Below, piece by piece: positions 28,630-63,895 of a DNA stretch of 64,000 bases; positions within the stretch are counted from its first letter, which is position 1, and each line of letters starts with the position of its first letter. The position numbers were made by a program, and so were the translations under genes. Source of the stretch: an uncultured Pseudomonadota bacterium (GTDB lineage: Bacteria > Pseudomonadota > Alphaproteobacteria > UBA9219); the NCBI GenBank assembly GCA_903919315.1, contig CAIXHP010000008.1:1-64000 (forward strand). Reading direction: 5' to 3'. A model generated the notes under the pieces. That model ran no database searches, was not told the origin of the DNA, and was given only the letters and a program-made list of their open reading frames with translations.

Positions 28630-28668
28630 CCCCCCACCCAACCCTCCCCCCAGGGGGGGAGGGCTTTT
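28630..28668 (+). repeat. Dispersed GC-rich palindromic repeat (copy between cobS and cobT)
   Basis: CCCCCCACCCAACCCTCCCCCCAGGGGGGGAGGGCTTTT. Confidence 0.9.
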
Positions 28669-41376: not shown

Positions 41377-42659
41377 CGGCGGGCGCTCGGTTCGATTTCG
41401 GTTCGCAGCCGTGGTTCACGGAGGCGGGTGTGCGCTCTGTTTTGGCCGCGATTGCTGCCGTTGGGGGCGAGGCGCGTTTTGTCGGCGGTGTGGTGCGCGA
41501 TGCGCTGCTGGGACGCGCGGCGGGGGATGTCGATCTTGCGGTCAATTTGCAGCCCGATCGGGTGACGGCGGCTTTGACGGCGGCGGGAATCAAGGTGGTG
41601 CCGACCGGCGTGGAGCATGGCACCGTGACGGCGGTGGCGGGGCGCAAGGGGTATGAAATCACTACGCTGCGCTATGACGTGGCGACGGACGGGCGGCGGG
41701 CTACGGTCGCTTTTACGGACGACTGGCAAGCGGATGCTGCCCGGCGGGATTTTACGTTTAACGCGCTGTATGTCGATGCCGACGGCGCTTTGTATGATTA
41801 TTTTCGGGGGCGTGACGATCTGGCGGCGGGGCGCGTGCGGTTTATCGGCGAGGCCGAGGCGCGGATTCGCGAGGATGTGCTGCGGATACTGCGCTTTTTC
41901 CGGTTTTATGCGTGGTTCGGGCGCGGGGAGGCGGAGGCCGAGGGGCTGAAGGCTTGCCGCGCTTTGGCGCACCTGCTGCCGCAGCTGTCGGTCGAGCGCG
42001 TGTGGAACGAGATCGGGAAATTGCTGCGCGCGCCGGATCCGGTTCCGGCGTGGCGGTTGATGCTGGCGAACGGGATCGTGGCACCGTTGGTGCCGGAGGC
42101 GGCGGATGTCGAGCGGTTGGCGCGGGTGGTGGATGTCGAGCGTGGGGGTGGCGGAGAGAACCCCTCCCCTAACCCCTCTCTCAAGGGGAGGGGAATTCAG
42201 GCGGATGGCGGCGATGCCCTTGTGCGGCTGGCGGCGTTGTTGCCTGCGGATGCGGATGTGGCGGACCGTGTGGCGCGGCGGTTGCATATGGCGAATCGCG
42301 AGGGTGAGCGGCTGAAGGTTCTGGCGGTGCTGCCGGGACGGTTGCGCGGCGCTTTGGATCGGACGGCTTTGCGCCGGACGTTGTACGCGCAGGGCGCGGC
42401 GGCGGTGGGCGAGGCTCTGTTGCTGGCGGCGGCGGACGGTGCGGGCGTGGATTTTGTGGCGGCGTTGGATGTTGTGGCGGCTTGGGAGAATCCGGTTCTG
42501 CCGATTCAGGGGGGCGATATTGTGAGCCTTGGCGTGCCGCCGGGGCCGCGTGTGGGCGATATTCTTCGCGCTGTTGAGGCTTGGTGGATGGCGGGCGATT
42601 TTCGGGCGGCGCGGGCGGCGTGTTTGGCGGAGGCCGCGCGGTTGACGAAGGTCGTGTAA
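41373..42659 (+). CDS. CCA tRNA nucleotidyltransferase / poly(A) polymerase family
   Basis: VGGVVRDALLGRAAGDVDLAVNLQPDRV; RDFTFNALYVDADGALYDYFRGRDDLAAGRVRFIGEAEARIREDVLRILRFFRF. Confidence 0.95.
   Translation: MTAGARFDFGSQPWFTEAGVRSVLAAIAAVGGEARFVGGVVRDALLGRAAGDVDLAVNLQPDRVTAALTAAGIKVVPTGVEHGTVTAVAGRKGYEITTLRYDVATDGRRATVAFTDDWQADAARRDFTFNALYVDADGALYDYFRGRDDLAAGRVRFIGEAEARIREDVLRILRFFRFYAWFGRGEAEAEGLKACRALAHLLPQLSVERVWNEIGKLLRAPDPVPAWRLMLANGIVAPLVPEAADVERLARVVDVERGGGGENPSPNPSLKGRGIQADGGDALVRLAALLPADADVADRVARRLHMANREGERLKVLAVLPGRLRGALDRTALRRTLYAQGAAAVGEALLLAAADGAGVDFVAALDVVAAWENPVLPIQGGDIVSLGVPPGPRVGDILRAVEAWWMAGDFRAARAACLAEAARLTKVV
42158..42196 (+). repeat. Variant palindromic repeat located in frame inside the CCA-adding enzyme gene
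   Basis: GAACCCCTCCCCTAACCCCTCTCTCAAGGGGAGGGGAATT, translated within GGGGENPSPNPSLKGRGIQADGGD. Confidence 0.75.
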
Positions 42660-42672
42660 CCAATACGGATAC

Positions 42673-43302
42673 TTATTGCGGCTCGGTCGCGCCGACGACG
42701 GTGTGGAGCGTGGCGATGTCGGCGGCGGGGATGGTGAAGTCGCGCGGCTGGGGTTGGTATTCGCGCACGGTCACGCCGTTGGGTTTTTGTTTGACGAATT
42801 CTTTGATCAGCACCGCGCCGCTGGGCTGGGTGATGACGACACCGCTGCCCGGCACCGGCGGCTTGTAGGGATTGATGAACAGCAATTGGCGCGGGCGGTA
42901 CATCGGCACCATCGAGGTTCCGACGACGTAGATCGCGTAGGCATCACGGACGTGCGCGAGGTAATGCGGGCGCGGAACCTGATCGATCGCGCCGTCGGTA
43001 AGGAACATTTCCTGAGCGTTTCCGCCACGCGCCGCGCCGCGCACGGGCAACGTGCCCGCCGGGGCGAGGGCGGCGGGGGGCATCGCCACGGACTTAAAGC
43101 CGATGTCTTCGGCCAGCAGATCGCGCGGGTCGCAGCCGAGCGGTTTGGCGAGGCGCACCATCCAATCCACCGTCAGGCGGCGTTCGCCTTTTTCCAGTTT
43201 GTCGATTTGGCTTTTGCTCGTGCCGCTCGCGTCCGCGAGTTGTTGCAGAGTCCAGCCGCGCCTTTGGCGCAGGGCGCGTATGCGGTTTGATCCTTCGGTC
43301 AT
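42673..43302 (-). CDS. XRE HTH + S24 peptidase-like repressor
   Basis: RALRQRRGWTLQQLADASGTSKSQIDKLEKGERRLT; YAIYVVGTSMVPMYRPRQLLFINPYKPPVPGSGVVI. Confidence 0.88.
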   Translation of the reverse strand: MTEGSNRIRALRQRRGWTLQQLADASGTSKSQIDKLEKGERRLTVDWMVRLAKPLGCDPRDLLAEDIGFKSVAMPPAALAPAGTLPVRGAARGGNAQEMFLTDGAIDQVPRPHYLAHVRDAYAIYVVGTSMVPMYRPRQLLFINPYKPPVPGSGVVITQPSGAVLIKEFVKQKPNGVTVREYQPQPRDFTIPAADIATLHTVVGATEPQ

Positions 43303-43426
43303 GGGGACAGTTTAGCAGCCTCCTGCGCCCGTGTGTAGTACAAAATGGTTACTTTTTTCTGGACAGAAGTATCCGGAATGGGTACATTGCTTTTCGCGGT
43401 TTCAACGGTTTTTGCGGGAGGTTGGG

Positions 43427-43933
43427 ATGGGAATGCGTCGGGAGCCTGTGGCCACGGATCGTCGTTTGCGGCATCGCCTCGCGGCGGTCGATCATGGGCC
43501 TGCCGAGCGGTGGCAGCATTCCGGGCGCGTGATGGAATTGACGGAGCAGGCGGGGGTTCTGGCGGTGCGGGCCACCGAGGAGCATGCGCTGGATGTGTTG
43601 GTGCTGCGGGCTTGGATTTCCTCCGCGCAGCGCGAGGCGGCGTTACGGTTTCGCGCGGATTATCATTATGCGGGGATGGAGGCGCGGGTGGTCGGCAGCT
43701 ATAACCCGGCGCGTACCTCGTTCAGCCCGTTCGGCGGTTGGGACGAGCGCAGCGACGCGGAGGAGGCGGCCTATCAACGCTGGCGTAGCGCCATGCGGGC
43801 GATGGGGGCGGCAAACAGCGATGTGGTGGTGACGGTCGCTTGCCATGACCAGATGCCGGGACTGCGGCAGGCTCCGTTGCTCAAGGCGGGGCTGGATCGG
43901 TTGGTGAAGCACTATCGGTTGCCGGACGCTTGA
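43427..43933 (+). CDS. Hypothetical protein at the start of the phage-like cluster
   Basis: Complete ORF MGMRREPVATDRR…NPARTSFSPFGGWDERSDAEEAAYQRWRSAMRAMG; family not certain. Confidence 0.55.
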   Translation: MGMRREPVATDRRLRHRLAAVDHGPAERWQHSGRVMELTEQAGVLAVRATEEHALDVLVLRAWISSAQREAALRFRADYHYAGMEARVVGSYNPARTSFSPFGGWDERSDAEEAAYQRWRSAMRAMGAANSDVVVTVACHDQMPGLRQAPLLKAGLDRLVKHYRLPDA

Positions 43934-44190: not shown

Positions 44191-44417
44191 TTCAACCTTG
44201 CGTGAAAGGGAGGGACGTGACAACGCGTTTGTTCGTAACGCACGAACATGTTTCGACGTTAGCACGGTCGGCGAATTCGGTTAAGCTAAAGTTGCAAGGC
44301 GGGCGGCGGAGGGGTATAGGAAAAAGAACCTAAGATAGAAAAAGAAACCTTGACACAGGCGCCGCTTTGGCGTATTGACAGTCCCACGGCGCAGTGCGTC
44401 AAAACGGCGGGGCTTTG

Positions 44418-44804
44418 ATGACGGTGAAAGTGCGGAAGACTTTGTCTGAGGCGCGGCCAACCGTCACGACGACAACAAGCAAAAAATCGGCGAAGGCGAA
44501 AAGCGCGGGGCGACGCTCCGCGAAGGGGATCGCGCAGGTGCAGGCGGTTTTGCTCGCGCTGATGAGCGGGAGCGCGAGCGACGCGGTGCGCGTTTCGGCG
44601 GCCAAGACCTTGTTGGACAAATTGTTGCGGGACGACGCGGAGGGTGATGAAGCGCAGCGGCACGAGGCGGACGAGCGCGAAGCCGCCATCGCCGAAGCCG
44701 CTGTCTTGCTGGCGGAGCTTGCCGAAGGAATGTCTGGCGGCGTTCGTGAGCCGTCTGTGCTGGCTCCGGACGGCGCGGCCGCAACAACTGACTCCGCCGG
44801 GTGA
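44418..44804 (+). CDS. Putative terminase small-subunit-like protein
   Basis: Basic N-terminus, ASDAVRVSAAKTLLDKLLRDD; position directly upstream of and overlapping the large terminase. Confidence 0.45.
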   Translation: MTVKVRKTLSEARPTVTTTTSKKSAKAKSAGRRSAKGIAQVQAVLLALMSGSASDAVRVSAAKTLLDKLLRDDAEGDEAQRHEADEREAAIAEAAVLLAELAEGMSGGVREPSVLAPDGAAATTDSAG

Positions 44805-45951
44805 CTGGCGCGTCTGGCTTATTCTCGCGGGGCGCGGTTGGGGCAAGACGCGCACGGGGGCCGAGGATATTGCCGCTTATGCCTTGTGGAACGCGGGCGC
44901 TCGGATCGGCGTGATCGCGCCGACGTTCGCCGACGCGCGGGATGTGTGCGTGGAAGGCGAGAGCGGGTTGCTGCGCGTGCTGCCGCCCGCTTGCGTGGCC
45001 GCGTGGCACCGGAGCACGGGGGATTTGCTGCTGTTCAACGGCAGCCGGATTAAACTTTATTCCGCCGATCAGCCGGAACGGCTGCGCGGGCCGCAGCATC
45101 ATCGCGTTTGGTGCGACGAGCTGGGGGCTTGGCCGGGGCGGGGGGCTTTTGATCAGTTATGGTTCGGGTTGCGCCTTGGGCGCGACCCGCGTGTTGTTGT
45201 AACCACTACACCGAGGAATGCGCCTGTGATCCGCGAACTTTTTCAACGCAAGGACGTGCGGCTGACCCATGGCCGCACGATGGACAACGCCGCGCATCTC
45301 GCGCCGCGCGTGCTGGAGCAACTGACGGAACGTTATGCGGGAACGCGGTTGGGACGGCAGGAACTTGATGCCGAATTGCTGGAAGACACCGACGGCGCTT
45401 TGTGGAAGCGGCAGATGCTGGATTTGTGCCGCGTGCAGACGGCACCCGCGTTGCGGCGCGTCGTGGTGGCGATCGATCCGGCCATGAGCAACGGCGCGGC
45501 CAGCGACGAGACGGGAATCGTGGCCGCCGGACGCGGCGCGGACGGGATGATTTATGTGCTGGCGGATTGGTCGGGCAAGTTCTCGCCGGAGGGTTGGGCG
45601 CGTCGCGCCGTTCTGCTGCATCAGGATTTGGGCGCTCAGATGATCGTCGCCGAGGTGAACGCGGGCGGCGATTTGGTGGAACGCGTCGTGCGGCAGATCG
45701 CGCCGCAGATTCTGTTCAAGCCGGTGCGGGCTTTGCGCGGGAAGGCGGAGCGCGCCTTGCCGGTGGCGGCGCTGTACGAGCAGGGCCGCGTGCGGCATGT
45801 GGGCGCTTTGGCCGCGCTGGAGGATCAGATGTGCCGCTTCGCGCCGGGGAATGTGGCGGTGAAGTCGCCGGATCGCGTGGATGCATTGGTATGGGCGGTG
45901 ACGGAATTGAGCGAGACGGCGCGGGGGGAACCTCGGGTCAGGGTTTTGTGA
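44644..45951 (+). CDS. Phage/GTA terminase large subunit (true start may be later)
   Basis: PPGDWRVWLILAGRGWGKTRTGAEDIAAYALWNAGARIGVIAPTFADARDVCVEGESGLL; nuclease-domain VVVAIDPAMSNGAASDETGIVAAG. Confidence 0.93.
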   Translation: MMKRSGTRRTSAKPPSPKPLSCWRSLPKECLAAFVSRLCWLRTARPQQLTPPGDWRVWLILAGRGWGKTRTGAEDIAAYALWNAGARIGVIAPTFADARDVCVEGESGLLRVLPPACVAAWHRSTGDLLLFNGSRIKLYSADQPERLRGPQHHRVWCDELGAWPGRGAFDQLWFGLRLGRDPRVVVTTTPRNAPVIRELFQRKDVRLTHGRTMDNAAHLAPRVLEQLTERYAGTRLGRQELDAELLEDTDGALWKRQMLDLCRVQTAPALRRVVVAIDPAMSNGAASDETGIVAAGRGADGMIYVLADWSGKFSPEGWARRAVLLHQDLGAQMIVAEVNAGGDLVERVVRQIAPQILFKPVRALRGKAERALPVAALYEQGRVRHVGALAALEDQMCRFAPGNVAVKSPDRVDALVWAVTELSETARGEPRVRVL

Positions 45952-45976: not shown

Positions 45977-46204
45977 CCCCCCACCCAACCCTCCCCCCAA
46001 GGGGGGAGGGCTTTATGCCGTGGGGGCGGTGACGGCGTTGGGCGAGACGGCGTGGCGTGGGGAGAAGAGACCCCCCACCCAACCCTCCCCCTCAGGGGGG
46101 GAGGGCTTTATGCCGTGGGCGCGGTGACGGAGTTGAGAGAGACGGCGTGGCGTGGGGAGAAGAGACTCCCCACCCAACCCTCCCCCTCAAGGGGGGAGGG
46201 CTTT
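45977..46204 (+). repeat. Three tandem copies (about 96-bp unit) of the palindromic repeat plus terminase 3'-end-derived sequence
   Basis: Repeat cores at 45977-46014, 46071-46109 and 46166-46204, separated by GGGCGGTGACGG(a/c)(a/g)TTG(a/g)G(c/a)GAGACGGCG…, which matches 45893-45921 in the terminase ORF. Confidence 0.85.
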
Positions 46205-46233: not shown

Positions 46234-47451
46234 ATGGGGTTGCGGGATCTCGTGACGCAATGGGTGCGTCCTAAGGCTGGGGCTTTGGCGGTCAAGGCCA
46301 GTTCGGCGGGGCCTGTGGTGGCGTGGAGCCAGGTGGGCAAGCCGAAATGGACGCCGCGACGTTATGAGAGTTTGGCCGAAGAGGGATTCCGCAAAAACGT
46401 CGTGGCTTATCGCTGCGTGATGCAGATCGCGACTTCGGCGGCGGCGGTGCCGTGGTTGCTGTATGACGATTCGGGGACGGAGATTGACCGTCATCCGCTG
46501 TTGGATTTGTTGCGGCATCCTAATCCGTTGCAGGATGGGATGGCGTTTCTTGAAAACATCTATGCCAATCTTCAGATTGCCGGGAACGCTTATGTCGAGG
46601 CGGTGCCTTCGCGGGACGGGCAGCGACCGGTGGAGCTGTATGCGCTGCGGCCGGATCGCATGAAGGTCGTGCCGGGGCCTGCGGGGTTGCCGCAGGGATA
46701 GGAATATGGCGTGAATGGCCGTCTGACGCGCTGGAGCGCGGATCCCATCACGGGGGCCAGCGCCATTTTGCATATGCGGCAGTTTCATCCTTTGGATGAC
46801 TGGTACGGCATGGCGCCTTTGGAGGCGGCTTTGCTGTCGGTGGATCAGCACAACGCGGCGGGCGCTTGGAATCAGGCGCTGCTCAATCAGGGCGCACGGC
46901 CTTCGGGAGCTTTGGTGTTCGCGCCCAAGGACGGGGGCGCGTCGAACCTCAGCGACGATCAGGTGCAGCGTCTACGCGAGGAGATGGATCAACTTTATCA
47001 GGGCAAGGGCAACGCCGGTCGGCCGCTTATTCTCGAAGGAGGGCTGGACTGGCGCGAGATGAGCCTCAGCCCCAAAGACATGGACTGGCTGGCGGGACGG
47101 GACGCGGCGGCGCGGGATATTGCGCTGGCGTTCGGGGTTCCGGCGCAGCTCGTCGGGCTGTCCGGCGCTCAGACTTACGCCAACATGGCCGAGGCGCGGC
47201 TGGCTTTGTACGAGGAAACGGTGTTGCCGCTCATCCACCGCGTGATCGCGGCGTTTGATCATTGGCTGACACCGTTGTTCGACGATTCGCTCAACCTCGA
47301 TTTCGATATGGACGACATCAGCGCCCTCACGGCGCGGCGCGACTCGCAGTGGGACAAGCTGCAACGCGTCGATTTTCTCACCGTCAACGAAAAGCGCGCG
47401 GCGGTGGGGTATGGGCCGGTCGAGGGCGGCGATAGCGTGAGGGGCGCGTAA
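46234..47451 (+). pseudogene. HK97-type portal protein interrupted by one in-frame TAG codon (46699-46701)
   Basis: 46234-46701 (…DRMKVVPGPAGLPQG*) continues in the same frame as EYGVNGRLTRWSADPITGASAILHMRQFHPLDDWYGMAPLEAALLSVDQHN. Confidence 0.85.
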
Positions 47452-47502: not shown

Positions 47503-48111
47503 GTGATCATGGATATCAAACATATTGCGCGTCCGTTGGCGATCAAAACGCTGGCGGCGGACGGGTTGTTTTCGGGTTACGCCAGCGTGTTCGGCGTGGT
47601 CGACCATCAAAACGAAGTGGTCGCGCCTCAGGCCTTCACGCGCACTTTGGCGGGGTGGCGCGCGGCGGGACGCATGCCCGCGATGCTTTGGATGCACGAT
47701 CCGGCGCAGCCTATCGGGCTGTGGCTGGCGTTGCAGGAGGACAGGAAGGGACTTGCCGTGCAGGGCCGTTTGGCGCTGCGCACCCAAAAGGGCGGCGAGG
47801 CTTATGAACTGCTCAAGATGGGGGCGCTCACGGGGCTTTCCATCGGCTACCGCGTGGTGGCGAGCAAGGTCGACGGCAAGCGCAAGGCGCGGATGCTGAC
47901 CGATCTGGAACTGTTCGAAATTTCGTTGGTGACCTTTCCCGCCAACGAAGCCGCGCGGGTGAGCGAGGTGAAGTCGCCGCCGATCCTGTTGGGATCGCAG
48001 CGCCGACCCAAGACCGACTCCGACACGACGCGGGCCGTCGTTGCGCGGTTGCACGAAGCGGCCCGCGTTTTGAAACACAATCCCACACACGAATCCACAA
48101 GGAGGATTTAA
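47503..48111 (+). CDS. HK97 family prohead protease
   Basis: FSGYASVFGVVDHQNEVVAPQAFTRTL…MLWMHDPAQPIGLW…LTGLSIGYR…LFEISLVTFPANEAA. Confidence 0.93.
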   Translation: MIMDIKHIARPLAIKTLAADGLFSGYASVFGVVDHQNEVVAPQAFTRTLAGWRAAGRMPAMLWMHDPAQPIGLWLALQEDRKGLAVQGRLALRTQKGGEAYELLKMGALTGLSIGYRVVASKVDGKRKARMLTDLELFEISLVTFPANEAARVSEVKSPPILLGSQRRPKTDSDTTRAVVARLHEAARVLKHNPTHESTRRI

Positions 48112-48112
48112 T

Positions 48113-49345
48113 ATGATCGACATGAACGAGGTTCATGCGGCCACCGACACGTTGGCCCGGGCCTTTGAGGAATACAAAAGCGTCAACGACCAGCGCCTTG
48201 GCGAGATCGAACGGCGCGGCGCTCCGGACGTTCTGCTCGGCGAAAAGCTGGGGCGCATGGATCAGGCGCAGAACAAGTTGCAGGACGACATTAGCGGCGT
48301 GAAGACCGCTCTGCGCCGTCCGGCGCGTGGCCTTGCCGGGTTGGCGGCGGCTCAGGAGGGTGACGGCGAGTATAAGGGCGCTTTCCTGCGCTATGTCGCG
48401 AAGGGCATCGAACAGGAGTTGTCGAGCCTGCAGACCAAAGATATGAGCGTCGTCGCCGATCCGCAGGGCGGCTATATGGTGCCGGTCGAGATGGCGGATC
48501 GCATCGTCACGCGCCAGTTCGACAGTACGCCGATGCGCCAACTGGCGACGGTGATGACGGTGTCTTCGGAAGCGGTCGAGATGCTGCGCGACACCAACGA
48601 GCCTGTGGCGCAATGGGTTTCGGAACTGGGCACGCGCTCCGACACCGATCAGGGCGCGATTGGGCGCATTCGCATTCCGGTGCATGAGCTTTATGCGCAG
48701 CCGAAGGCGACGCAAAAGCTTTTGGACGACTCCATCATCAACATCGAAGACTGGTTGATCAGCCGCGTGGCCGGGAAATTCTCGCGTGCCGAGAACACGG
48801 CTTTTGTCAGCGGCGACGGCATCGGGCAACCGCGCGGATTTCTCAGCTATGCGACGCAGGCGGTCGGCGACAGCAGCCGTTCGTGGGGCGTTATGGAGCA
48901 TGTTATCACCGGCACCGACGGCGGTTTCGCCGCCAGCTCCGGCGCGGACGTGCTGATCAGCCTGATGCACAAACTGCGGGCCGGTTATTTGCCGAAAGCG
49001 ACGTGGCTGATGCCGCGCGCCGTGGCCGATCTGATCCGCAAGTTCAAGGAAAACACGACCCAGGCTTATATCTGGCAGCCGGGGTTGCAGGCGGGCGTGC
49101 CTGCGACGTTGTTGGGGCATCCCATCGTGCTGGCCGACGATATGCCGACGGCGGCGACCGGAAGTCTGTCGCTGGCCTTTGGCAATTTTGAGGAAGGCTA
49201 CACCATCGTCGATCGCGTCGGGCTGCGCGTGTTGCGCGATCCTTACACCTCGGCTCCGTTCGTCAAGTTCCGCTGCAACAAGCGCGTCGGCGGCGACGTG
49301 GTCAACTTTGAAGCCATCAAGCTGTTGAAGTTCTCGGCGAGCTAA
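48113..49345 (+). CDS. HK97-type major capsid protein
   Basis: Coiled-coil delta domain, then GGYMVPVEMADRIV…TWLMPRAVADLIRKFK…LGHPIVLADDMPT…FGNFEEGYTIVDRVGLRVLRDP. Confidence 0.93.
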   Translation: MIDMNEVHAATDTLARAFEEYKSVNDQRLGEIERRGAPDVLLGEKLGRMDQAQNKLQDDISGVKTALRRPARGLAGLAAAQEGDGEYKGAFLRYVAKGIEQELSSLQTKDMSVVADPQGGYMVPVEMADRIVTRQFDSTPMRQLATVMTVSSEAVEMLRDTNEPVAQWVSELGTRSDTDQGAIGRIRIPVHELYAQPKATQKLLDDSIINIEDWLISRVAGKFSRAENTAFVSGDGIGQPRGFLSYATQAVGDSSRSWGVMEHVITGTDGGFAASSGADVLISLMHKLRAGYLPKATWLMPRAVADLIRKFKENTTQAYIWQPGLQAGVPATLLGHPIVLADDMPTAATGSLSLAFGNFEEGYTIVDRVGLRVLRDPYTSAPFVKFRCNKRVGGDVVNFEAIKLLKFSAS

Positions 49346-49407: not shown

Positions 49408-49806
49408 ATGACCATTCGTGATCTTTTGCGGCGAACGCTGGTGACGGCTTCGTTGGCTCCGGCGGTGCGCACCAACGGCACGGCGACAGGAACGGCGGTG
49501 GACTTGCGCGGCTATGACTCCGCCATCCTGACTGTGCAATTCGGCACTTGGACGGACGGAACGCATACGCCTTCGGTGCAGCATTCGGTGGATGGCACGA
49601 CCTACACGGCGGCTGCTGCGTCCGATTTGGACGGCAGCTTTGCGGCGGTCAACAGCGCGGCGGGCAACGGCACCGTGCAGTCGGTGGGCTATATCGGCGC
49701 GCAGCGCTATGTGCGCGTGGTGATGACCACCAGTGGCGCGACCAGCGGCGCTTTGAGCGCCGCGTATGTCATCAGCGGTTCGCCGCGCAACGCGCCGACG
49801 GTTTGA
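49408..49806 (+). CDS. Phage structural/decoration-like hypothetical protein
   Basis: ORF between capsid and connector; DLRGYDSAILTVQFGTWTDGTHTPSVQHSVDGTTYTAAAASDLDG. Confidence 0.6.
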   Translation: MTIRDLLRRTLVTASLAPAVRTNGTATGTAVDLRGYDSAILTVQFGTWTDGTHTPSVQHSVDGTTYTAAAASDLDGSFAAVNSAAGNGTVQSVGYIGAQRYVRVVMTTSGATSGALSAAYVISGSPRNAPTV

Positions 49807-49884: not shown

Positions 49885-50513
49885 ATGACGGCATTCACGC
49901 TTGTCACGCCGCCGGTGGTGGAGCCGGTGACGTTGAGCGAAATGAAGACTCAGGCGCGCGTCGATACGGACGCGGACGATACTTTGATCGCGGCGTTGAT
50001 CACGGCGGCGCGGCAATGGGCGGAGCGGTTTACAGGACGCGCGTTTATTGCGCAGACGTGGCGGTTGTGGCTTGATGTGCCGCCGGAGTCGCGGGGCGAT
50101 TGGTGGGACGGCGTGCGCGAAGGGGCCTTGGCGAGCTTTATGCCTGCCGCCTCCGTTGTGTTGCCGCGCCCGCCTTTGATGTCCGTCAGCAGCGTTCAGG
50201 TGTTCGGCGACGACGATGTCGGCGTGGTGTGGCCGTCGGCACATTATTTCGTGGATACGGCGCGGCAACCGGGGCGGTTGGCGTTGCGTTCGGGGGCTGT
50301 GTGGCCTGTGCCTCAGCGTGCGGCCAATGGGCTAATGATCGAATATGTTGCGGGCTATGGCAACGACGGCGCGGCGGTGCCGGAGCCGATCCGGTTGGCC
50401 ATTCGCCAGTTGGGGCGCACTGGTACGAACGACGCGGCGATGACGAGGCCCCTACGCCAGAGGTCGTGCAGGCGTTGTTGAATCCTTATCGAATCCAGAG
50501 TTTGGGGGGCTGA
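49885..50513 (+). pseudogene. Head-tail connector (gp6-like) with a 3' frameshift near 50410-50418
   Basis: Frame 1 …PEPIRLAIRQL then GRTGTNDAAMTRPLRQRSCRRC*. Another frame supplies the expected tail AHWYERRGDDEAPTPEVVQALLNPYRIQSLGG*. Confidence 0.78.
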
Positions 50514-50854
50514 TGCGTATCGGCGCGTTGCGGAAACGGCTGGCGTTGCAGAGCGAGGGACTCGCGCCGGACGGCGCGGGCGGCAGCATGGCCGTTTGGA
50601 CCACGGTGGCGACGGTGTGGGCGGCGGTGGAGCCAATTGCCAAGGCGGGCGCTTGGGTCGATAGCCGCTTTGACCGGCGCGTGACGCATGTGGTGACGAT
50701 GCGGTGGCGCGGCGATGTGGCGGTGACGACGGGGATGCGGTTGTTGCTGGGAAGCCGGGTTTTCATGATCCGCGCCGTGGCCAATCCTGTTGAGGGCAAT
50801 CGGTGGTTGGAACTACGGGTCGAAGAAGACGGGTTGCTGGGCGGGGAGGCTTAA
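50513..50854 (+). CDS. Phage head closure / head-tail adaptor protein
   Basis: MRIGALRKRLALQSEGLAPDGAGGSMAVWTTVATVWAAVEPI…RVTHVVTMRWRGDVAVTTGMRLLLGSRVFMIRAV. Confidence 0.85.
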   Translation: MRIGALRKRLALQSEGLAPDGAGGSMAVWTTVATVWAAVEPIAKAGAWVDSRFDRRVTHVVTMRWRGDVAVTTGMRLLLGSRVFMIRAVANPVEGNRWLELRVEEDGLLGGEA

Positions 50855-51481
50855 ATGGCGTTTGATGAAGTGTCGTTTCCGTTGTGCGTCGGCTATGGCG
50901 CGAGCGGCGGCCCCACGTTTTTGACGGAGGTCGTGACGATTGATGGCGGTTATGAACGACGCAACCAGTTGTGGAGTCAGGCGCGGCGGAAGTATGAGGC
51001 GCGGACGGGTGTGCGTTCGGCGGCGGATGCGGCGTTGTTGTCGGCTTTTTTTCAGGCGCGGGCCGGACGCGCGCGCGGGTTTCGGTTGAAGGACTGGAGC
51101 GATTTTTCCAGCGCGGCGGATGGGACATCGGCTCCGGACTGGCGCGATCAGACGCTGGGCTTCGGCAACGGCGTCGCGACGGTGTTTCCGTTGATCAAAA
51201 ACTACGGCAGCGGCGGCGTGTCCTATGCGCGTTCGATCCGCAAGCCTGTGGCGGGGAGCGTTTTGATTGGCGTGGGTGGCGTTCGGCTGATGACGGGGTG
51301 GAGCGTTGCGACGACGACGGGGCTTGTGAGCTTTTCCACGCCTCCTGCCGTTGGGGCCGCGATTACGGCTGGTTTTCTCTTTGACGTGCCGGTGCGTTTC
51401 GACACGGATCAGCTCTCTTTGACGGCGGAAGACGATCATATGGGGAAAGCGGAGATTCCCTTGGTGGAGGTTCGCGTCTGA
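50855..51481 (+). CDS. DUF2460 protein (GTA gp12-like distal tail protein)
   Basis: MAFDEVSFPLCVGYGASGGPTFLTEVVTIDGGYERRNQLWSQARRKYEARTGVRS…ARGFRLKDWSDFSS. Confidence 0.92.
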   Translation: MAFDEVSFPLCVGYGASGGPTFLTEVVTIDGGYERRNQLWSQARRKYEARTGVRSAADAALLSAFFQARAGRARGFRLKDWSDFSSAADGTSAPDWRDQTLGFGNGVATVFPLIKNYGSGGVSYARSIRKPVAGSVLIGVGGVRLMTGWSVATTTGLVSFSTPPAVGAAITAGFLFDVPVRFDTDQLSLTAEDDHMGKAEIPLVEVRV

Positions 51482-54400
51482 TGAAAACGATTTCTCCGGC
51501 TTTGCAGGCGCATTTGGACGGCGAGCTGACGACTTTGGCCGATTTGGTAAAAATCACGCGGGCGGACGGTGTCGTGAAGGCGTTTACTTCGCATGACGCG
51601 GATTTGGTCGTGGACGGCGTGACGTATGTGGCGGACGGGTCGTTTGCCGCGCATGCGTTTGATAATGCGGCGGCGCTTAAGGCGGATTCCGCTGCGATTG
51701 AAGGAATTTTAGATAGCGCTCTCCTGAGCGAGAACGAGATTAAGGCCGGACTCTACGATCATGCGCGGATTGACGTTTATGTGTGCAACTGGAGCGATCC
51801 GGCGCAGGGCGTTGTGCCGTTGCGGCGCGGGTGGTTGGGCGAGGTGCGGCTTGCGGGCGGGCGCTATGTCGCGGAACTGCGCGGGCTGCATGATTTGTTG
51901 CAGCGAACCGTTGGGGATACTTATACGCCGGAGTGCCGTTATGACCTCGGCGATGCGCGTTGCGGCGTGAATGTCGCGGCTTTGACCGTGGCAGGTAGCG
52001 TCAGCGGCGTTGCGGATCGCGTGGTGTTTACCGATGCGGCGCGGACGGAGGCGGCGGGCGTTTTCAATTACGGCAAGCTGGTCTGGACGAGCGGGGCCAA
52101 TACGGGTCTCAGCATGGAAGTGCAGAATTGGGATGCCGCGAGCAGGACGTTTACGTTGTGGTTGCCGATGCCGAATAATGTGGCGGGGAATATCGTTTGG
52201 GCTTCCAGCCTGATTGAAACAGCGCATGAAAATCAGGTGGGCGGCGGCAAGGGCGGCGCTTTGGGCGGCGGGGGAACGCGAACCACCTATAGCTATAGTC
52301 TTCATTGCGCGGTGGCGATTTGCTCAGGCGTTATCGGCGGCATCGCGACCATTTGGGCTGACAGCAAGGTGATTTATCAGAACGGCGTTTGGAAGACGGG
52401 CGTTGTCGGCAATGCGACGGTTTATGCTGGAACAGCGACGCAGGACGTGGATCCGTTGATGGAGTCCATGATCGGGGCGGGGCAGGTTCCGGCTTATCGC
52501 GGCGTGGCCTATATCGTGTTGGAGTCGCTGCAACTGGCGGATTTCGGCAGCCGGTTGCCCAATCTGACGTTCGAAGTCTTGCCGCAGGACATTGCGCCGG
52601 AGCCGACGTGGCTTGGCGTGGTTGATGCGGGCGTGAATTTCAGCGCGGTAACGATGCGCAACGGCGGCATGCCGCCCTTGACGATTGAGGGCGGAAGTTC
52701 TGGCGCGCGTCGCGTGTTGATGGGCGGCTATACGGTTACGGGCGCGACGGCGACGTTTACCGCGACGGCGTATGATGTGACCGGCGACGTTCCGGTTGAG
52801 CAGGCGCGGACGCAGAGCGCGGGTTTCGCGGTCAGCGATGTGGGCGATCACAGTTGGGCGCTCGCGCCCGATGGGCGGTTTGTGGCGTTGTGTCTTCAGG
52901 ACGCTTCGACGACTCCGACGCACCGACTGGCGCTTTACGATGTCGAGAACCGGCAGTTTGGGGCGCTTTTGTCGTTGAACTTGCCCGCCGGAAACGATCC
53001 CAAGCGCGTGGCTTGGATCGATGCGCAACATTTTGTGCTGACGGATGTCGCGGGCGGCAAGCGCGGGCTGCGCGTTCTGGCGCGTGCGGGGTTGTCGGTT
53101 GTTGATCTGGGGTTCTTCGATGTTTGGGGCGCGGGGTCGGCGGCGGCGATGAAGCCGCTTTATTACGCGCAGTTTACGCCTTTGGCGGACGGGTTGTTAC
53201 ATTATGCGGCGAACACGTCGCCATACTTTACCGCGATCTACGTTAGGCCGGTGTATTGGCAGGGCAACCGATTGGTGGTGGGGGCGGCCTATACGCTCGT
53301 CAGCGGCGTGGCTACGGGGTCGGGGAGCGGCGTTCAGGCGCATTTGATTCCTACCGGCGACGGCGAATGGACTTTGTTTTACGCTTCCACCATCGATATG
53401 CGGATGATGTCGTTTCGTCCGGGGGTGAGTTCGGCCATCGTCACGCGGCCATGGCAGATTTTGGTCAACGCATCGTTCAGTCTGGCGGCCAGTCAGAATC
53501 CGGTCGTGTTCGGCGACCGGATCGTGGTTGTTCAGCGCAGTTATCTCGAAAACATTTATCGGTTGTCAGAAATCGCGCTGAACGATAGCGGCTTTGCTTT
53601 GGTTGTCGATGGGGTGGAGGTGGCGGGGTGTTCTTCGCCGCTCGTGGATTTCGGCGCGGCGGCTTTGGACGGGGCGCGGCTTTTCCTGATGGGGCTGAGC
53701 GGCTTTGAGTATCGGTTGTCCCAGTTTGCCATTGTTCGGCGGCGTCCTACGGGGGATCGGTTGGACGCGATTGTCGCAGGTCTTTTGGCGCGTGCCGGAT
53801 ATGACGACGGCGATGTCGATGTGACCGCTTTGGCCGATGTACCGGTGGACGGCTATGTGATGGCGGAGCCGATGACGGCGGCGGCGGCGCTCGCGCCGTT
53901 GCAGCTGTTCGAGCCGTTTGATCTGGTGGAGAGCGGCGCTCGGCTGAAGGCGGTGAAGCATGGCGGCGCGGCGGTCGTTTCCGTCGCCGTCACCGAAATG
54001 CGGGCGAGCGACAAGGCGGCGGCGGAGCCTTTGCGCGAGCAGGCGCGGGCGCAGGAGCTGGACTTGCCAGTCGAGGTGACGGTCGATTATCTCGACGCGT
54101 CGCGGGATTATGAGGTCGGCAGCCAGCGGGCGCGGCGCTCGGCCACGCGCGGGGCGCGGATGATGGCGAAGTTGCGTTTGCCCTTGGTTTGTTCGGCGGC
54201 GCGGGCAAAACAGATCGCTGAAGAGCGTTTGTTCGCCGCTTGGGCCGAGCGCGATCAGGTCACGTTGCGCCTGTCACGGCGCTGGCTGGCTTTGGAGCCG
54301 GGCGATGTGGTCAATCTGGGCGACCGTTTGCTGCGCGTGGCGCGGGTGCGGCGGCAGGGTGGATTGCTGGAGGTGCAGGGCGCGTTGATCGCGGCATCAC

Positions 54401-55377
54401 CTGTGAACAGCGCGGCGCAAGCGGACAGCGGGGCTTTGAGCGGAGGCGTTTCCGTCGCGCCGGTGGCCAGCGTTTTGTATTTGATGGATTTGCCGCTGTT
54501 GCGCTCTGCCGACGATCAGCCGGGCGTTTATGCGGCGGTGAGCGGGATTGCGGGTTGGCCGGGAGCGTCTTTGTGGCGTTCGCCTGATGCGGTGAATTTC
54601 AGCAACGTTGCGGGGTTTAGCGTTCCGGCCATCGCGGGGATCGCGGTGACGGCGTTGGTGGATGGGCCTTCGCTTTACATGGATCGCGCCGGAACGGTGC
54701 AGGTTCAGATGCTGCAAGGTTCGCTGGCAAGTTGCGGTGAGGCCGATCTTTTGAACGGGGCGAATGTCGCGTTTCTCGGCGGCGAGTTGATCCAGTTTCA
54801 GACGGCGACGCTGGCGGGGCCGGGGTTGTACGCGCTGAGCAATCTGTTGCGCGGTCGGCGCGGCACCGAAAGCGCGATGGCGACGCATGTCGTCGGGGAG
54901 GGCTTTGTCGTTTTGACTCCGGGGACGGTGCAGTTCCTTCCGGCGGCACTGGCGGATCGCGGGAACACGCACATGTTTCGCGCTTTGAGCAACGGCCAGA
55001 GTTTGGGGGCGGCGGCGGATGTTGCGTTGACTTATGGGATGGCGACGCTGCGGCCTTTGGCTCCGGCGCATGTCGCGGGCGTTCGCAGCGGGGGCGATTT
55101 GATCGTGACGTGGACGCGACGGGCGCGGTTGAACGGCGAATGGATCGACAATGTCGATGTGCCTTTGGACGAGCCGGTCGAGCTTTACGATGTCGAGATT
55201 ATGAACGGCGGGAGCGTCTTGCGCACGTTTGCGGGCGTGACGGCGGCGAACGTGACTTATACCGCCGCGCAACAGAGCGCGGATTGGGGTGGCAGCATTC
55301 CGGCGCAGTTTAGCGTGAGGGTTTATCAGCTCAGCGCGCGCTATGGGCGCGGGCAGGCGGCGAGCGCGGTGGTTTAG
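51481..55377 (+). CDS. Fusion: N-terminal DUF2163 (GTA gp13-like hub) + phage tail tip/host-specificity protein (GTA gp15-like)
   Basis: N-terminus MKTISPALQAHLDGELTTLADLVKITRADGVVKAFTSHDADLVVDGVTY; from about residue 230 NIVWASSLIETAHENQVGGGKGG…YSLHCAVAICSGVIGGIATIWADSKVIY, characteristic of gp15-type proteins. Confidence 0.88.
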   Translation: MKTISPALQAHLDGELTTLADLVKITRADGVVKAFTSHDADLVVDGVTYVADGSFAAHAFDNAAALKADSAAIEGILDSALLSENEIKAGLYDHARIDVYVCNWSDPAQGVVPLRRGWLGEVRLAGGRYVAELRGLHDLLQRTVGDTYTPECRYDLGDARCGVNVAALTVAGSVSGVADRVVFTDAARTEAAGVFNYGKLVWTSGANTGLSMEVQNWDAASRTFTLWLPMPNNVAGNIVWASSLIETAHENQVGGGKGGALGGGGTRTTYSYSLHCAVAICSGVIGGIATIWADSKVIYQNGVWKTGVVGNATVYAGTATQDVDPLMESMIGAGQVPAYRGVAYIVLESLQLADFGSRLPNLTFEVLPQDIAPEPTWLGVVDAGVNFSAVTMRNGGMPPLTIEGGSSGARRVLMGGYTVTGATATFTATAYDVTGDVPVEQARTQSAGFAVSDVGDHSWALAPDGRFVALCLQDASTTPTHRLALYDVENRQFGALLSLNLPAGNDPKRVAWIDAQHFVLTDVAGGKRGLRVLARAGLSVVDLGFFDVWGAGSAAAMKPLYYAQFTPLADGLLHYAANTSPYFTAIYVRPVYWQGNRLVVGAAYTLVSGVATGSGSGVQAHLIPTGDGEWTLFYASTIDMRMMSFRPGVSSAIVTRPWQILVNASFSLAASQNPVVFGDRIVVVQRSYLENIYRLSEIALNDSGFALVVDGVEVAGCSSPLVDFGAAALDGARLFLMGLSGFEYRLSQFAIVRRRPTGDRLDAIVAGLLARAGYDDGDVDVTALADVPVDGYVMAEPMTAAAALAPLQLFEPFDLVESGARLKAVKHGGAAVVSVAVTEMRASDKAAAEPLREQARAQELDLPVEVTVDYLDASRDYEVGSQRARRSATRGARMMAKLRLPLVCSAARAKQIAEERLFAAWAERDQVTLRLSRRWLALEPGDVVNLGDRLLRVARVRRQGGLLEVQGALIAASPVNSAAQADSGALSGGVSVAPVASVLYLMDLPLLRSADDQPGVYAAVSGIAGWPGASLWRSPDAVNFSNVAGFSVPAIAGIAVTALVDGPSLYMDRAGTVQVQMLQGSLASCGEADLLNGANVAFLGGELIQFQTATLAGPGLYALSNLLRGRRGTESAMATHVVGEGFVVLTPGTVQFLPAALADRGNTHMFRALSNGQSLGAAADVALTYGMATLRPLAPAHVAGVRSGGDLIVTWTRRARLNGEWIDNVDVPLDEPVELYDVEIMNGGSVLRTFAGVTAANVTYTAAQQSADWGGSIPAQFSVRVYQLSARYGRGQAASAVV

Positions 55378-55408: not shown

Positions 55409-55447
55409 CCCCCCTCCCAACCCTCCCCCCAAGGGGGGAGGGCTTTT
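55409..55447 (+). repeat. Dispersed palindromic repeat copy
   Basis: CCCCCCTCCCAACCCTCCCCCCAAGGGGGGAGGGCTTTT. Confidence 0.88.
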
Positions 55448-55470: not shown

Positions 55471-56061
55471 ATGCCTACGCCTAATCTTGCGCTTGCCTAT
55501 CTGGTCGCTTCGCAGGCGCAGAAGGAAGTGACGCACAATGACGCGCTCAATGATCTTGATGCCTTGGTGCAGCTGTCGGTGATCGACAGGACGTTGAATG
55601 CGCCGCCGGGGTCGCCTGCGACGGGCGATGTTTACATCGTCGGATCGTCGCCGACGGGCGCTTGGGCTGGGAACGCGGGGAAGGTCGCGGCTTATTACGC
55701 CGGATGGAAGTTCAAAGCGCCGGAGGCCGGGTGGACGGCCTGGGCGCGGAATGAAAATCATTTGTTGTACTACACTGGCACAGCGTGGGCCGGGGTGGGC
55801 GCGCCTTTTCTGGATGCGACGTGGACATGGAATCCGGGCGTCATCGCGAATGGCAGCGGCGTTGCGTCGTCGGCGGTCACGGTGACGGGCGCGGCTTTGG
55901 GCGATTTTGCGCGGGTGGCGGCCCCCTATGATCTGCAAGGCGTGATCGCCACGGCTTATGTCAGCGCGGCCAACACCGTTGCGGTGAGGATTCAGAACCA
56001 GACCGGAGGCAGCGTGACGCTGGCTTCGGGGACGTGGCGCGTGCGCGTAACGAAAGTTTGA
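55471..56061 (+). CDS. DUF2793 domain phage protein
   Basis: MPTPNLALAYLVASQAQKEVTHNDALNDLDALVQLSVIDRTLNAPPGSPATGDVYIVGSSPTGAWAGNAGKVA. Confidence 0.88.
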   Translation: MPTPNLALAYLVASQAQKEVTHNDALNDLDALVQLSVIDRTLNAPPGSPATGDVYIVGSSPTGAWAGNAGKVAAYYAGWKFKAPEAGWTAWARNENHLLYYTGTAWAGVGAPFLDATWTWNPGVIANGSGVASSAVTVTGAALGDFARVAAPYDLQGVIATAYVSAANTVAVRIQNQTGGSVTLASGTWRVRVTKV

Positions 56062-56069
56062 GGTGCGGG

Positions 56070-56351
56070 ATGAAACTGGAACTGAGTGAAACGATCGGAC
56101 GACATGTGCCGTTGGCGCTGGTGGCCGCTTTGGCGTTGCAGGGCGCGTCGGTGGTGTGGTGGGTCTCGGCGCGGGATCGCGATCATTTTTTTCTGGAGCA
56201 GCGCGTTACCAGTCTGGAATCCGGTTTGACGCGCGAAGCCGGGACGCAGGCTCAGGTAACGGAACGTCTGGCGCGGATCGAGGAGCGCATGAACGCCCAA
56301 CTGGCCGTTCTGGATCGGATCGAGAAGCAAATCAACGCCGCGCACAAATAA
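56070..56351 (+). CDS. Small membrane protein with coiled coil, possible lysis accessory
   Basis: One TM (VPLALVAALALQGASVVWWV) followed by a coiled coil; precedes lysozyme and holin genes. Confidence 0.55.
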   Translation: MKLELSETIGRHVPLALVAALALQGASVVWWVSARDRDHFFLEQRVTSLESGLTREAGTQAQVTERLARIEERMNAQLAVLDRIEKQINAAHK

Positions 56352-56897: not shown

Positions 56898-57305
56898 ATG
56901 TGGCAGGCTTTGATCGCGCCGGTTTTTTCCTTGATCGACAAGCTGATCCCCGATCCCAAGGCGCGCGAGGCGGCCAAGCTGCAATTGATGCAGGCCGAGG
57001 GGCAGCAGGCGTTGCAGGAGATTCAGGCTTCGCTGTCCGCCATCGTGACCGAGGCGCAGAGCGCTGACCCTTGGACGAGCCGCGCGCGCCCCAGCTTTTT
57101 GTATGTGATTTATGTTTTGATCCTTGCGGCGGTGCCGATGGGGGTTGTGTATGCCTATGATCCCGCCACCGCCAAGAGCGTTACCGAAGGCTTTCACGCT
57201 TGGCTGGCCGCGATTCCGGAACCGCTGATCCAACTGTTCGGGGTTGGGTATCTTGGCTATACCGGCGCGCGGAGTTTCGATAAGTGGCGGGGGGTGGGGA
57301 AGTAG
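56898..57305 (+). CDS. 3TM-type phage holin family protein
   Basis: FSLIDKLIPDPKAREAAKLQLMQAE…SRARPSFLYVIYVLILAAVPMGVVYAYDP…FGVGYLGYTGARSFDKWRG. Confidence 0.85.
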   Translation: MWQALIAPVFSLIDKLIPDPKAREAAKLQLMQAEGQQALQEIQASLSAIVTEAQSADPWTSRARPSFLYVIYVLILAAVPMGVVYAYDPATAKSVTEGFHAWLAAIPEPLIQLFGVGYLGYTGARSFDKWRGVGK

Positions 57306-57308
57306 AGA

Positions 57309-58145
57309 TCACCCAGCCCGGAATTTGTGCGCCGGGTAGGTTCCCAGAACGGTAACTTCCTGCGCGAAGAAGGCGAGTTCTTCGAGGGCGTTTTTCATGG
57401 GGGTTTCTTCGGGGTGGCCTTCGACATCGACGTAGAATTGCGCTGCCGTGAATTTGCCGTCCACCATATAGCTTTCCAGCTTGATGATGTTCACGCCGTT
57501 GGTGGCAAAGCCGCCGAGCGCTTTGTAGAGCGCCGCCGGGACGCTGCGCACGCGGAAGATCAGCGTCGTGATGCAGGGGCCTTGGCCGCACGGCGCGGGT
57601 TTGGGGTCGCGTGAAAGAACCAGAAAGCGCGTCGTGTTGTTCCGCAGGTCGGCGATGTCCGCCGCCAGACTTTCCAGTCCGTAAATTTTCCCCGCCAATT
57701 CCGAGGCGATGGCGGCGATGCTTTTGTCGCCGAGCTTTGCCACCTCCTCCGCCGATCCCGCCGTGTCCGCCTTGATGACGGGCTGCAGGTTGCGCGCGCG
57801 TAGCCATACGCGGCACTGCGCCAGCGCTTGCACATGGCTGTGAACCTTTTTGACGTCTTCCAGCTTTGCGCCCGGCACGACCAGCAGGTGGTGTTCCACC
57901 GGCTGGTAATGCTCGCCGATGATGTGCAGGCCGCTGCGGGGCAGCAGGTGGTGCACGTCGGCGACGCGTCCCGCCACCGAATTTTCAATCGGCATCATCG
58001 CCAGTTCCACACGCCCGTCTTGCACCGCCGCAAAGGCATCTTCGAAGGCCAGACAGGGCAACGTCTCGTAATCCGGCGCGACGGCGCGGCAGGCGAGGTC
58101 GGAATAGGCGCCCGGAGCGCCTTGGAACGCGATGTGTTTGTTCAT
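57309..58145 (-). CDS. pheA: Prephenate dehydratase
   Basis: MNKHIAFQGAPGAYSDLACRAVAPDYETLPCLAFEDAFAAVQDGRVELAMMPIENSVAGRVADVHHLL; C-terminal ACT domain. Confidence 0.95.
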   Translation of the reverse strand: MNKHIAFQGAPGAYSDLACRAVAPDYETLPCLAFEDAFAAVQDGRVELAMMPIENSVAGRVADVHHLLPRSGLHIIGEHYQPVEHHLLVVPGAKLEDVKKVHSHVQALAQCRVWLRARNLQPVIKADTAGSAEEVAKLGDKSIAAIASELAGKIYGLESLAADIADLRNNTTRFLVLSRDPKPAPCGQGPCITTLIFRVRSVPAALYKALGGFATNGVNIIKLESYMVDGKFTAAQFYVDVEGHPEETPMKNALEELAFFAQEVTVLGTYPAHKFRAG

Positions 58146-58377
58146 TCTTTCTGGGTGCGACATTTCGCGCGGGTAGTCAAGGTTTCGGTCGGCGGCGTGC
58201 GGCGGTTGGGTTTGGGGTGCCGCATAGGGCTTGGTTGTTGCCCTTATTACTTTCAGGTCAAAGTAATGGCGGCTAGCCGCCACAAATTTGCCTTGAGATT
58301 TGGGGTGTGAAGTATTATTCTTGCATCGTCCGCCTCAAGCGGAATGTATTCAATCAAGTTATTTTTTGGGGGTTAAA

Positions 58378-63597: not shown

Positions 63598-63724
63598 GAT
63601 TCCTCCCCCCTTGAGGGGGAGGTTAGGTGGGGGGTGGGTTCCGTTGGGGCTGTGGGCGCAAGTTCGGCAGTTACGGGATATGACCCCCCACCCAACCCTC
63701 CCCCTCAAGGGGGGAGGGCTTTTG
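63598..63724. repeat. REPIN-like unit, copy 1 (inverted pair of palindromic repeats)
   Basis: CCTCCCCCCTTGAGGGGGAGGTTAGGTGGGGGG … 45-bp spacer … CCCCCCACCCAACCCTCCCCCTCAAGGGGGGAGGGCTTTTG. Confidence 0.9.
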
Positions 63725-63768
63725 AGGGTCGACGTTTTTTGCGTTCGTCTTTCGGAAAAGCGCGTCCT

Positions 63769-63895
63769 GATTCCTCCCCCCTTGAGGGGGAGGTTAGGTG
63801 GGGGGGGGTTCCGTTGGGGCTGTGGGCGCAAGTCCGGCGGTTACGGGATATGACCCCCCACCCAACCCTCCCCCTCAAGGGGGGAGGGCTTTTGG
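63769..63895. repeat. REPIN-like unit, copy 2 (near-identical, offset 171 bp)
   Basis: Same order and orientation as 63598-63724, differing at only a few bases, including the shared spacer GTTCCGTTGGGGCTGTGGGCGCAAGT. Confidence 0.9.

Follow-up and report, generated by a model that had tools for sequence, protein, structure and literature searches.

Gene content and chromosomal setting of the cluster

The window, by which we mean the whole 64,000-nucleotide stretch of DNA analysed here, carries a head-to-holin gene cluster that runs from a terminase gene (start at 44644) to a GTA_holin_3TM gene (end at 57305), all on the + strand. The genes present follow the order of RcGTA of Rhodobacter capsulatus from terminase to fibre, with gp8-gp11 and gp14 missing. 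A candidate small terminase gene (44394-44804, +) was placed by its position and by partial homology in four related loci (L037, L043, L044 and L045), and had no Pfam match. The large terminase gene (Terminase_6N/6C; 44644-45951; Pfam 8.2e-22) is followed, in the interval before the portal gene, by three tandem copies of a repeat of about 94 bp with REP-like palindromes (45989-46200). The portal is split into two pieces in one unchanged frame, an N-terminal fragment (46234-46701; Phage_portal 9e-22) that terminates at an in-frame TAG (46699-46701) and a C-terminal fragment (46711-47451; Phage_portal 2.1e-57); four aligned relatives have a tyrosine where the stop stands. Beyond it lie the genes for the prohead protease (Peptidase_S78; 47503-48111; 4.2e-34), the major capsid protein (Phage_capsid; 48113-49345; 8e-81), whose nearest phage capsid is just 41% identical, and a phrog_5707 protein (49408-49806; 2.4e-26). 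The adaptor gene gp6 (49885-50513; phrog_442 2.1e-21) has lost one base near 50412, and the resulting frameshift replaces the C-terminus of the protein.

The stopper or head closure gene gp7 (50513-50854; Phage_HCP, head completion protein, Pfam E 1.2e-21) abuts the gene for the gp12 distal tail protein (DUF2460; 50855-51481; Pfam E 4.3e-74) with zero bases between them, exactly as a sequence-only reading of this DNA had described. DUF2460 is the family of the RcGTA distal tail protein (PDB 6tba, E 4.4e-71), and the junction at 50854-50855 is the expected place of gp8, gp9, gp10, gp10.1 and gp11. The ORF of 1298 aa on the 3' side of DUF2460 is a fusion of two baseplate proteins: its first 238 residues match the RcGTA hub, and from residue 226 on it matches the RcGTA megatron. 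Its hub part (gp13; 51481-52179; 6tba_7A residues 6-243) holds the first 231 of about 280 residues and is joined to the megatron part (gp15; 52180-55377; 6tba_8A) at megatron residue 75, with the first ~74 megatron residues missing and gp14 (the peptidase) gone. With the RcGTA structure (PMC7296036) as a guide, the hub part lacks its clip domain and some of the iron-sulphur region, where the missing portion is the second half of the ion-binding region; the megatron part lacks the iris/penetration (DNA-gate) domain. The cluster ends with genes for a DUF2793 tail fibre protein (55471-56061; 6.5e-30), a small protein with one membrane-spanning stretch as judged by eye (56073-56351), conserved in many of the related loci L033-L046, a GH24 phage lysozyme (56345-56896; 9.5e-48) and the GTA_holin_3TM protein (56898-57305; 1.3e-26). 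The REP-like palindromes (CCCTCCCCC..AAGGGGGGAG) gave 27 pattern matches against 0.5 expected; besides the three copies in the terL/portal interval, one lies between the fused hub and DUF2793 (55421-55442), and others were seen at 28642-28663, 42172-42192 and 63603-63888.

The cluster occupies a site that is shared by many relatives, with a DUF6456 gene upstream (43418-43930, +; Pfam 7.5e-11) and a prephenate dehydratase (PDT) gene downstream (57312-58283, - strand; 4.7e-58). A DUF6456 homolog also stands 5' of terL in L036, L037, L042, L044 and further loci, and PDT-region homology lies 3' of the cluster in L039, L040, L041, L173 and L053, the last of these being MAG STD2_72 (JAQVBU010000010.1) of the same order as the window genome. 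A terL homolog was found in 30 of 33 genomes of the order, nearly always as a single copy, and a tree of the cluster sorts genomes by family. The cluster is a domesticated element passed on by vertical descent. It is sister to the named RcGTA-type clusters and shares with them vertical inheritance, near-single copy number, a conserved site and purifying selection on its genes; the window cluster departs from them in having no tail tube gene, gp9. Because no integrase or replication genes were recognised among the genes checked beside it, and because its syntenic site is fixed, we do not regard it as an active prophage. An S24-type repressor-like gene lies near the cluster (42676-43302).

Distribution of tail genes among relatives

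The terminator, tube, chaperone and tape measure had been reported as unrecognisable anywhere in the window, and profile searches extend that absence to the whole genome. Intact relatives supplied the sequences for the gp8 and gp9 profiles, and a comparison with PDB tied gp9 to the RcGTA tail tube (4.5e-42) and gp8 to both the RcGTA and the SPP1 terminators. Searched across all contigs of the window genome, gp9, gp8 and gp10 (chaperone) gave zero matches, so that the displaced tail genes envisaged as a possible explanation were not encountered for any of the three. A GTA-type, full-length gp11 tape measure was likewise not found by profile search; the gp11 profile gave only weak matches, to the C-termini of tape measures of about 850 aa in three unrelated prophages on two other contigs (C30 and C23; loci L049-L051). 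Displacement of gp11 is real in one sister family, f2, and was considered for the window genome, where the search returned only these unrelated prophage tape measures.

We compared 33 genomes of the order, 24 from the window's family (f1) and nine from sister families. Profile searches found gp9 in none of the 24 family genomes and in seven of the nine others; gp10 was also absent from all 24 and was found only in f2. Family f2 has gp7, gp8, gp9, gp10 and gp10.1, plus the relocated gp11, which sits between gp13 and gp14 (L033, L035 and L036) in an order unlike that of RcGTA. Within the window's family, clade A (genera g4, g6 and g7) has retained gp8 in every genome in which this interval is assembled and carries, in the position of gp11, a protein of about 105 aa that mostly ends in QRIR, as gp11 does. 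When the profiles of this protein and of gp11 were compared with hhalign, only the last 23 residues aligned (E 0.0015, probability 17%). Since position and a weak C-terminal match are all that links the two, the protein is likely, though not proven, to be a shrunken tape measure. Three clade A portals (L037, L042 and L043) are 572-582 aa long against about 410 elsewhere, with about 160 extra residues.

Clade B (the window genome, g2 and g9) has gp7 directly before DUF2460, and no gp8 was found in the window genome or in any genome of g2, g8 or g9; in g8 the region is interrupted at contig ends. The gp7-DUF2460 junction is present in five genomes of three genera, namely the window genome and four genomes of two further genera, and its spacing differs among them: 0 bp in the window, about 22 bp in G017, an overlap in G015, about 31 bp in G008 and about 190 bp in G012. 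The relatives thus form a series of stages, from a full tail, through clusters that have no tube or chaperones and retain gp8 and the ~105-aa protein, to clade B, which has none of these.

A tree of eight cluster proteins places f2 outermost and f3 next, followed by clades A and B, with the window in B. Support is 100 for the f1 node and 91 for clade B, and the window's exact partner is unresolved (48). Ten loci without gp9 belong to the window's family and to one genome of f3 (G024). As another f3 genome (G028) has the tube gene, two or more separate losses of the tube are probable in the order. In the G028 locus (L034) the tube gene is kept, gp7 and gp8 were not found, the terminase lies 0.8 Mb away and the protease contains a stop. 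Among named RcGTA-type clusters that have a capsid gene, gp9 was present in 19 of 19. We noticed no report of tube-less GTA clusters in the open-access literature searched, which is weak evidence of novelty; a survey of RcGTA-type clusters required 14 of 17 genes (PMC10883770), and filters of this kind, which can exclude incomplete clusters, would overlook tube-less forms.

Selection and lesions in tube-less clusters

Codon models gave omega of about 0.07-0.15 in the tube-less clade A for terL, portal, protease, capsid, phrog_5707, gp8, DUF2460, gp13, gp15 and lysozyme, and 0.07-0.11 for most genes of clade B, the window genome included; the highest value among the tube-less sets was 0.24, for gp7 in clade A. 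These values are rough, as synonymous sites are near saturation, and neutrality (omega 1) is still far off. Together with the syntenic site, they show that the tube-less clusters have long been kept by selection. Divergence of gp7 and gp6 relative to capsid was 4.3 and 3.2 in clade B and 2.9 and 1.9 in clade A, a comparison of few pairs that does no more than hint at an altered or relaxed head-tail interface in clade B.

With portal, adaptor and baseplate genes all damaged, the window copy does not have the intact set expected of a functional GTA. In RcGTA, loss of gp14 gives empty heads without tails (PMC7296036). The freshness of these lesions makes the window copy probably a recent remnant. 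In simulations, a load of two point lesions over 11.7 kb was equivalent to about 0.002-0.005 neutral substitutions per site, and a copy that had been neutral since the split from the other genera would have hundreds of lesions. This tiny neutral divergence indicates that the window copy, though already tube-less, was free of such lesions until very recently, and on the strength of the sequence it has probably been inactivated only recently.

When 11 genes were tested, a broken gene was found in none of the six complete clusters of clade A, in none of the three of f2 and in all six assessable clusters of clade B; for clade A versus clade B the one-sided exact p is about 0.001, calculated by hand with no correction for kinship or for unequal assembly quality. 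The genomes are mostly drafts or metagenome-derived, and an individual lesion could reflect an error in the sequence. The clade B pattern fits an ongoing loss of the system. Collapsed remnants were seen in three genomes, G003 (L162), G001 (L176) and G018 (L173); they unite terL-portal with gp15 pieces, or terL with gp15 and holin, or leave terL beside PDT. The clade-wide lesions, set beside clade A, offer naturally occurring steps along which the death of a GTA can be followed.

A proposed tube-less particle and its alternatives

Based on the observed gene content, synteny, stage series, selection and lesions, we consider it reasonably probable that the window holds a recently dead copy of a vertically inherited RcGTA-type cluster that lost its tube module stepwise and that in relatives specifies a tube-less, ring-on-ring particle. 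In the ancestry of the family the chaperones would have been lost and the tape measure would have shrunk; the tube would have followed, and clade B would then also have lost the terminator and the tape-measure remnant. The RcGTA tail is built from hexamer rings that share a single fold, namely five of the tube and one each of stopper, terminator and distal tail (PMC7296036). In the proposed particle there would be no tube discs. The distal-tail ring (DUF2460) would instead be stacked straight against another ring, that of the terminator in clade A and that of the stopper in clade B; hub, megatron and fibres would follow underneath, the DNA would pass through a very short neck, and the GH24 lysozyme and the GTA holin would release the particles. 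A fall in disc number to zero would be expected to take the tube, the chaperones and the bulk of the tape measure with it as one coherent loss, and because all the other particle genes are under purifying selection, a particle without tube discs is the simplest mechanism. We infer from the shared fold and from selection that the rings could dock directly on one another, and that relatives may still produce particles and transfer genes by them. In the window copy, the portal stop, the adaptor frameshift and the fusion of hub and megatron, without peptidase and gate, would have ended function very recently.

Judged from sequence comparison, the tube-less element is probably functional in relatives. 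More tentatively, and as something possible that falls a little short of probable, the whole family may make functional tube-less GTAs, with capsid, neck and baseplate stacked ring on ring, as an intermediate between siphovirus and podovirus types that was reached at least twice in the order. The sequence-only reading had offered two options. The first, a precise deletion leaving a non-functional remnant, does not stand as an event in the window genome, where the loss is clade-shared and staged, and stands in so far as the copy, with its fresh lesions, is probably a recent remnant. The second, a head joined to a baseplate with no normal tail, is favoured for the family by the clade-shared, staged loss and the long-term purifying selection on all remaining genes, and does not extend to the window copy itself, which its lesions mark as probably dead.

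The cluster resembles RcGTA (PDB 6tba/6teb/6teh; PMC7296036) in gene order, in having direct homologs of its distal tail, hub and megatron, in the gp8 and gp14 kept by relatives of the window, in vertical inheritance at a fixed site and in the three-TM GTA holin family. It differs in that the family has no tube, chaperones or full tape measure, the window's clade has no terminator, and the window genome has no peptidase and a fused hub-megatron without the gate domain. Roseophage R4C (PDB 8gtc) also has a homologous distal tail, hub and megatron, but is a long-tailed phage and more distant than RcGTA. As judged from genes alone, the proposed particle would work like a podovirus-like short-tailed phage, with a very short neck and the baseplate near the head, whereas its parts are of siphovirus/GTA type, and podovirus tail genes (gatekeeper, needle, internal virion proteins) were not seen among the cluster matches. 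Should the clade A particles prove functional, selection would be seen to maintain a long-tailed particle stripped of its tube, its chaperones and the bulk of its tape measure, and the origin of short tails, along with the minimal needs of a GTA, could be tested directly.

The alternative that survives best, although we consider it unlikely, is that the family's clusters are merely decaying GTAs that lost their tail genes first and whose remaining genes persist by recent common descent. Lesions in every assessable clade B cluster and the three collapsed remnants are consistent with decay, as is the record of pseudogenised and lost GTAs in many alphaproteobacteria (PMC10883770). The window copy shares nonsense and frameshift lesions with such pseudogenised or "cheater" GTAs; unlike in those, the tube was already absent before the lesions arose, its absence extends through the whole family, and purifying selection has been sustained alongside it. 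Omega of about 0.1 over deep divergence after tube loss, the six undamaged clade A clusters, and the coherence of the losses (tube, chaperones and tape measure gone, with terminator, distal tail, hub, peptidase and megatron intact in clade A) argue against simple decay.

It is less likely still that a non-homologous gene, or a resident prophage acting in trans, provides the tube and tape measure. The window genome does house three other prophages with DUF2460, which bring tape-measure genes of ~850 aa and tube-sized genes of 314 aa, but such prophage tape measures were not detected in the clade A genomes G013, G016, G005, G020 and G022, and a comparison of loci revealed no new ORF, common to the window's family, in the vacant place of the tube. 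The phrog_5707 protein was considered as a substitute tube and rejected: it also occurs alongside a tube in other clusters, and its structural model (AF2 pLDDT 84; weak Foldseek matches, TM about 0.55) is a jelly-roll, so that it is a probable head decoration rather than a tube.

A recent, precise deletion of gp8-gp11 in the window genome alone would sit well with the recent lesions of this copy, yet is highly improbable given the same junction in G015, G017, G012 and G008 and the absence of the tube from 24 of 24 family genomes. Collapse of the assembly at 50.8 kb, conceivable in a 70-contig draft and raised earlier as a possible cause, can practically be set aside, with the adjacency assembled independently in four other genomes and gp8, gp9 and gp10 on no contig.

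The presence of ComEC, looked at as a sign of GTA use, was uninformative, being nearly universal. The three further DUF2460 prophages of the window genome (L049 and L050 on G000:C30, L051 on G000:C23) include hub and megatron genes, and their DUF2460 proteins are 45-47% identical; each has a tape measure of about 850 aa, and a tube-sized gene of about 314 aa was seen in both prophages on C30. A fourth prophage (L052, G000:C32) likely has a contractile, sheath-bearing tail and shows weak gp6/gp7 similarity.
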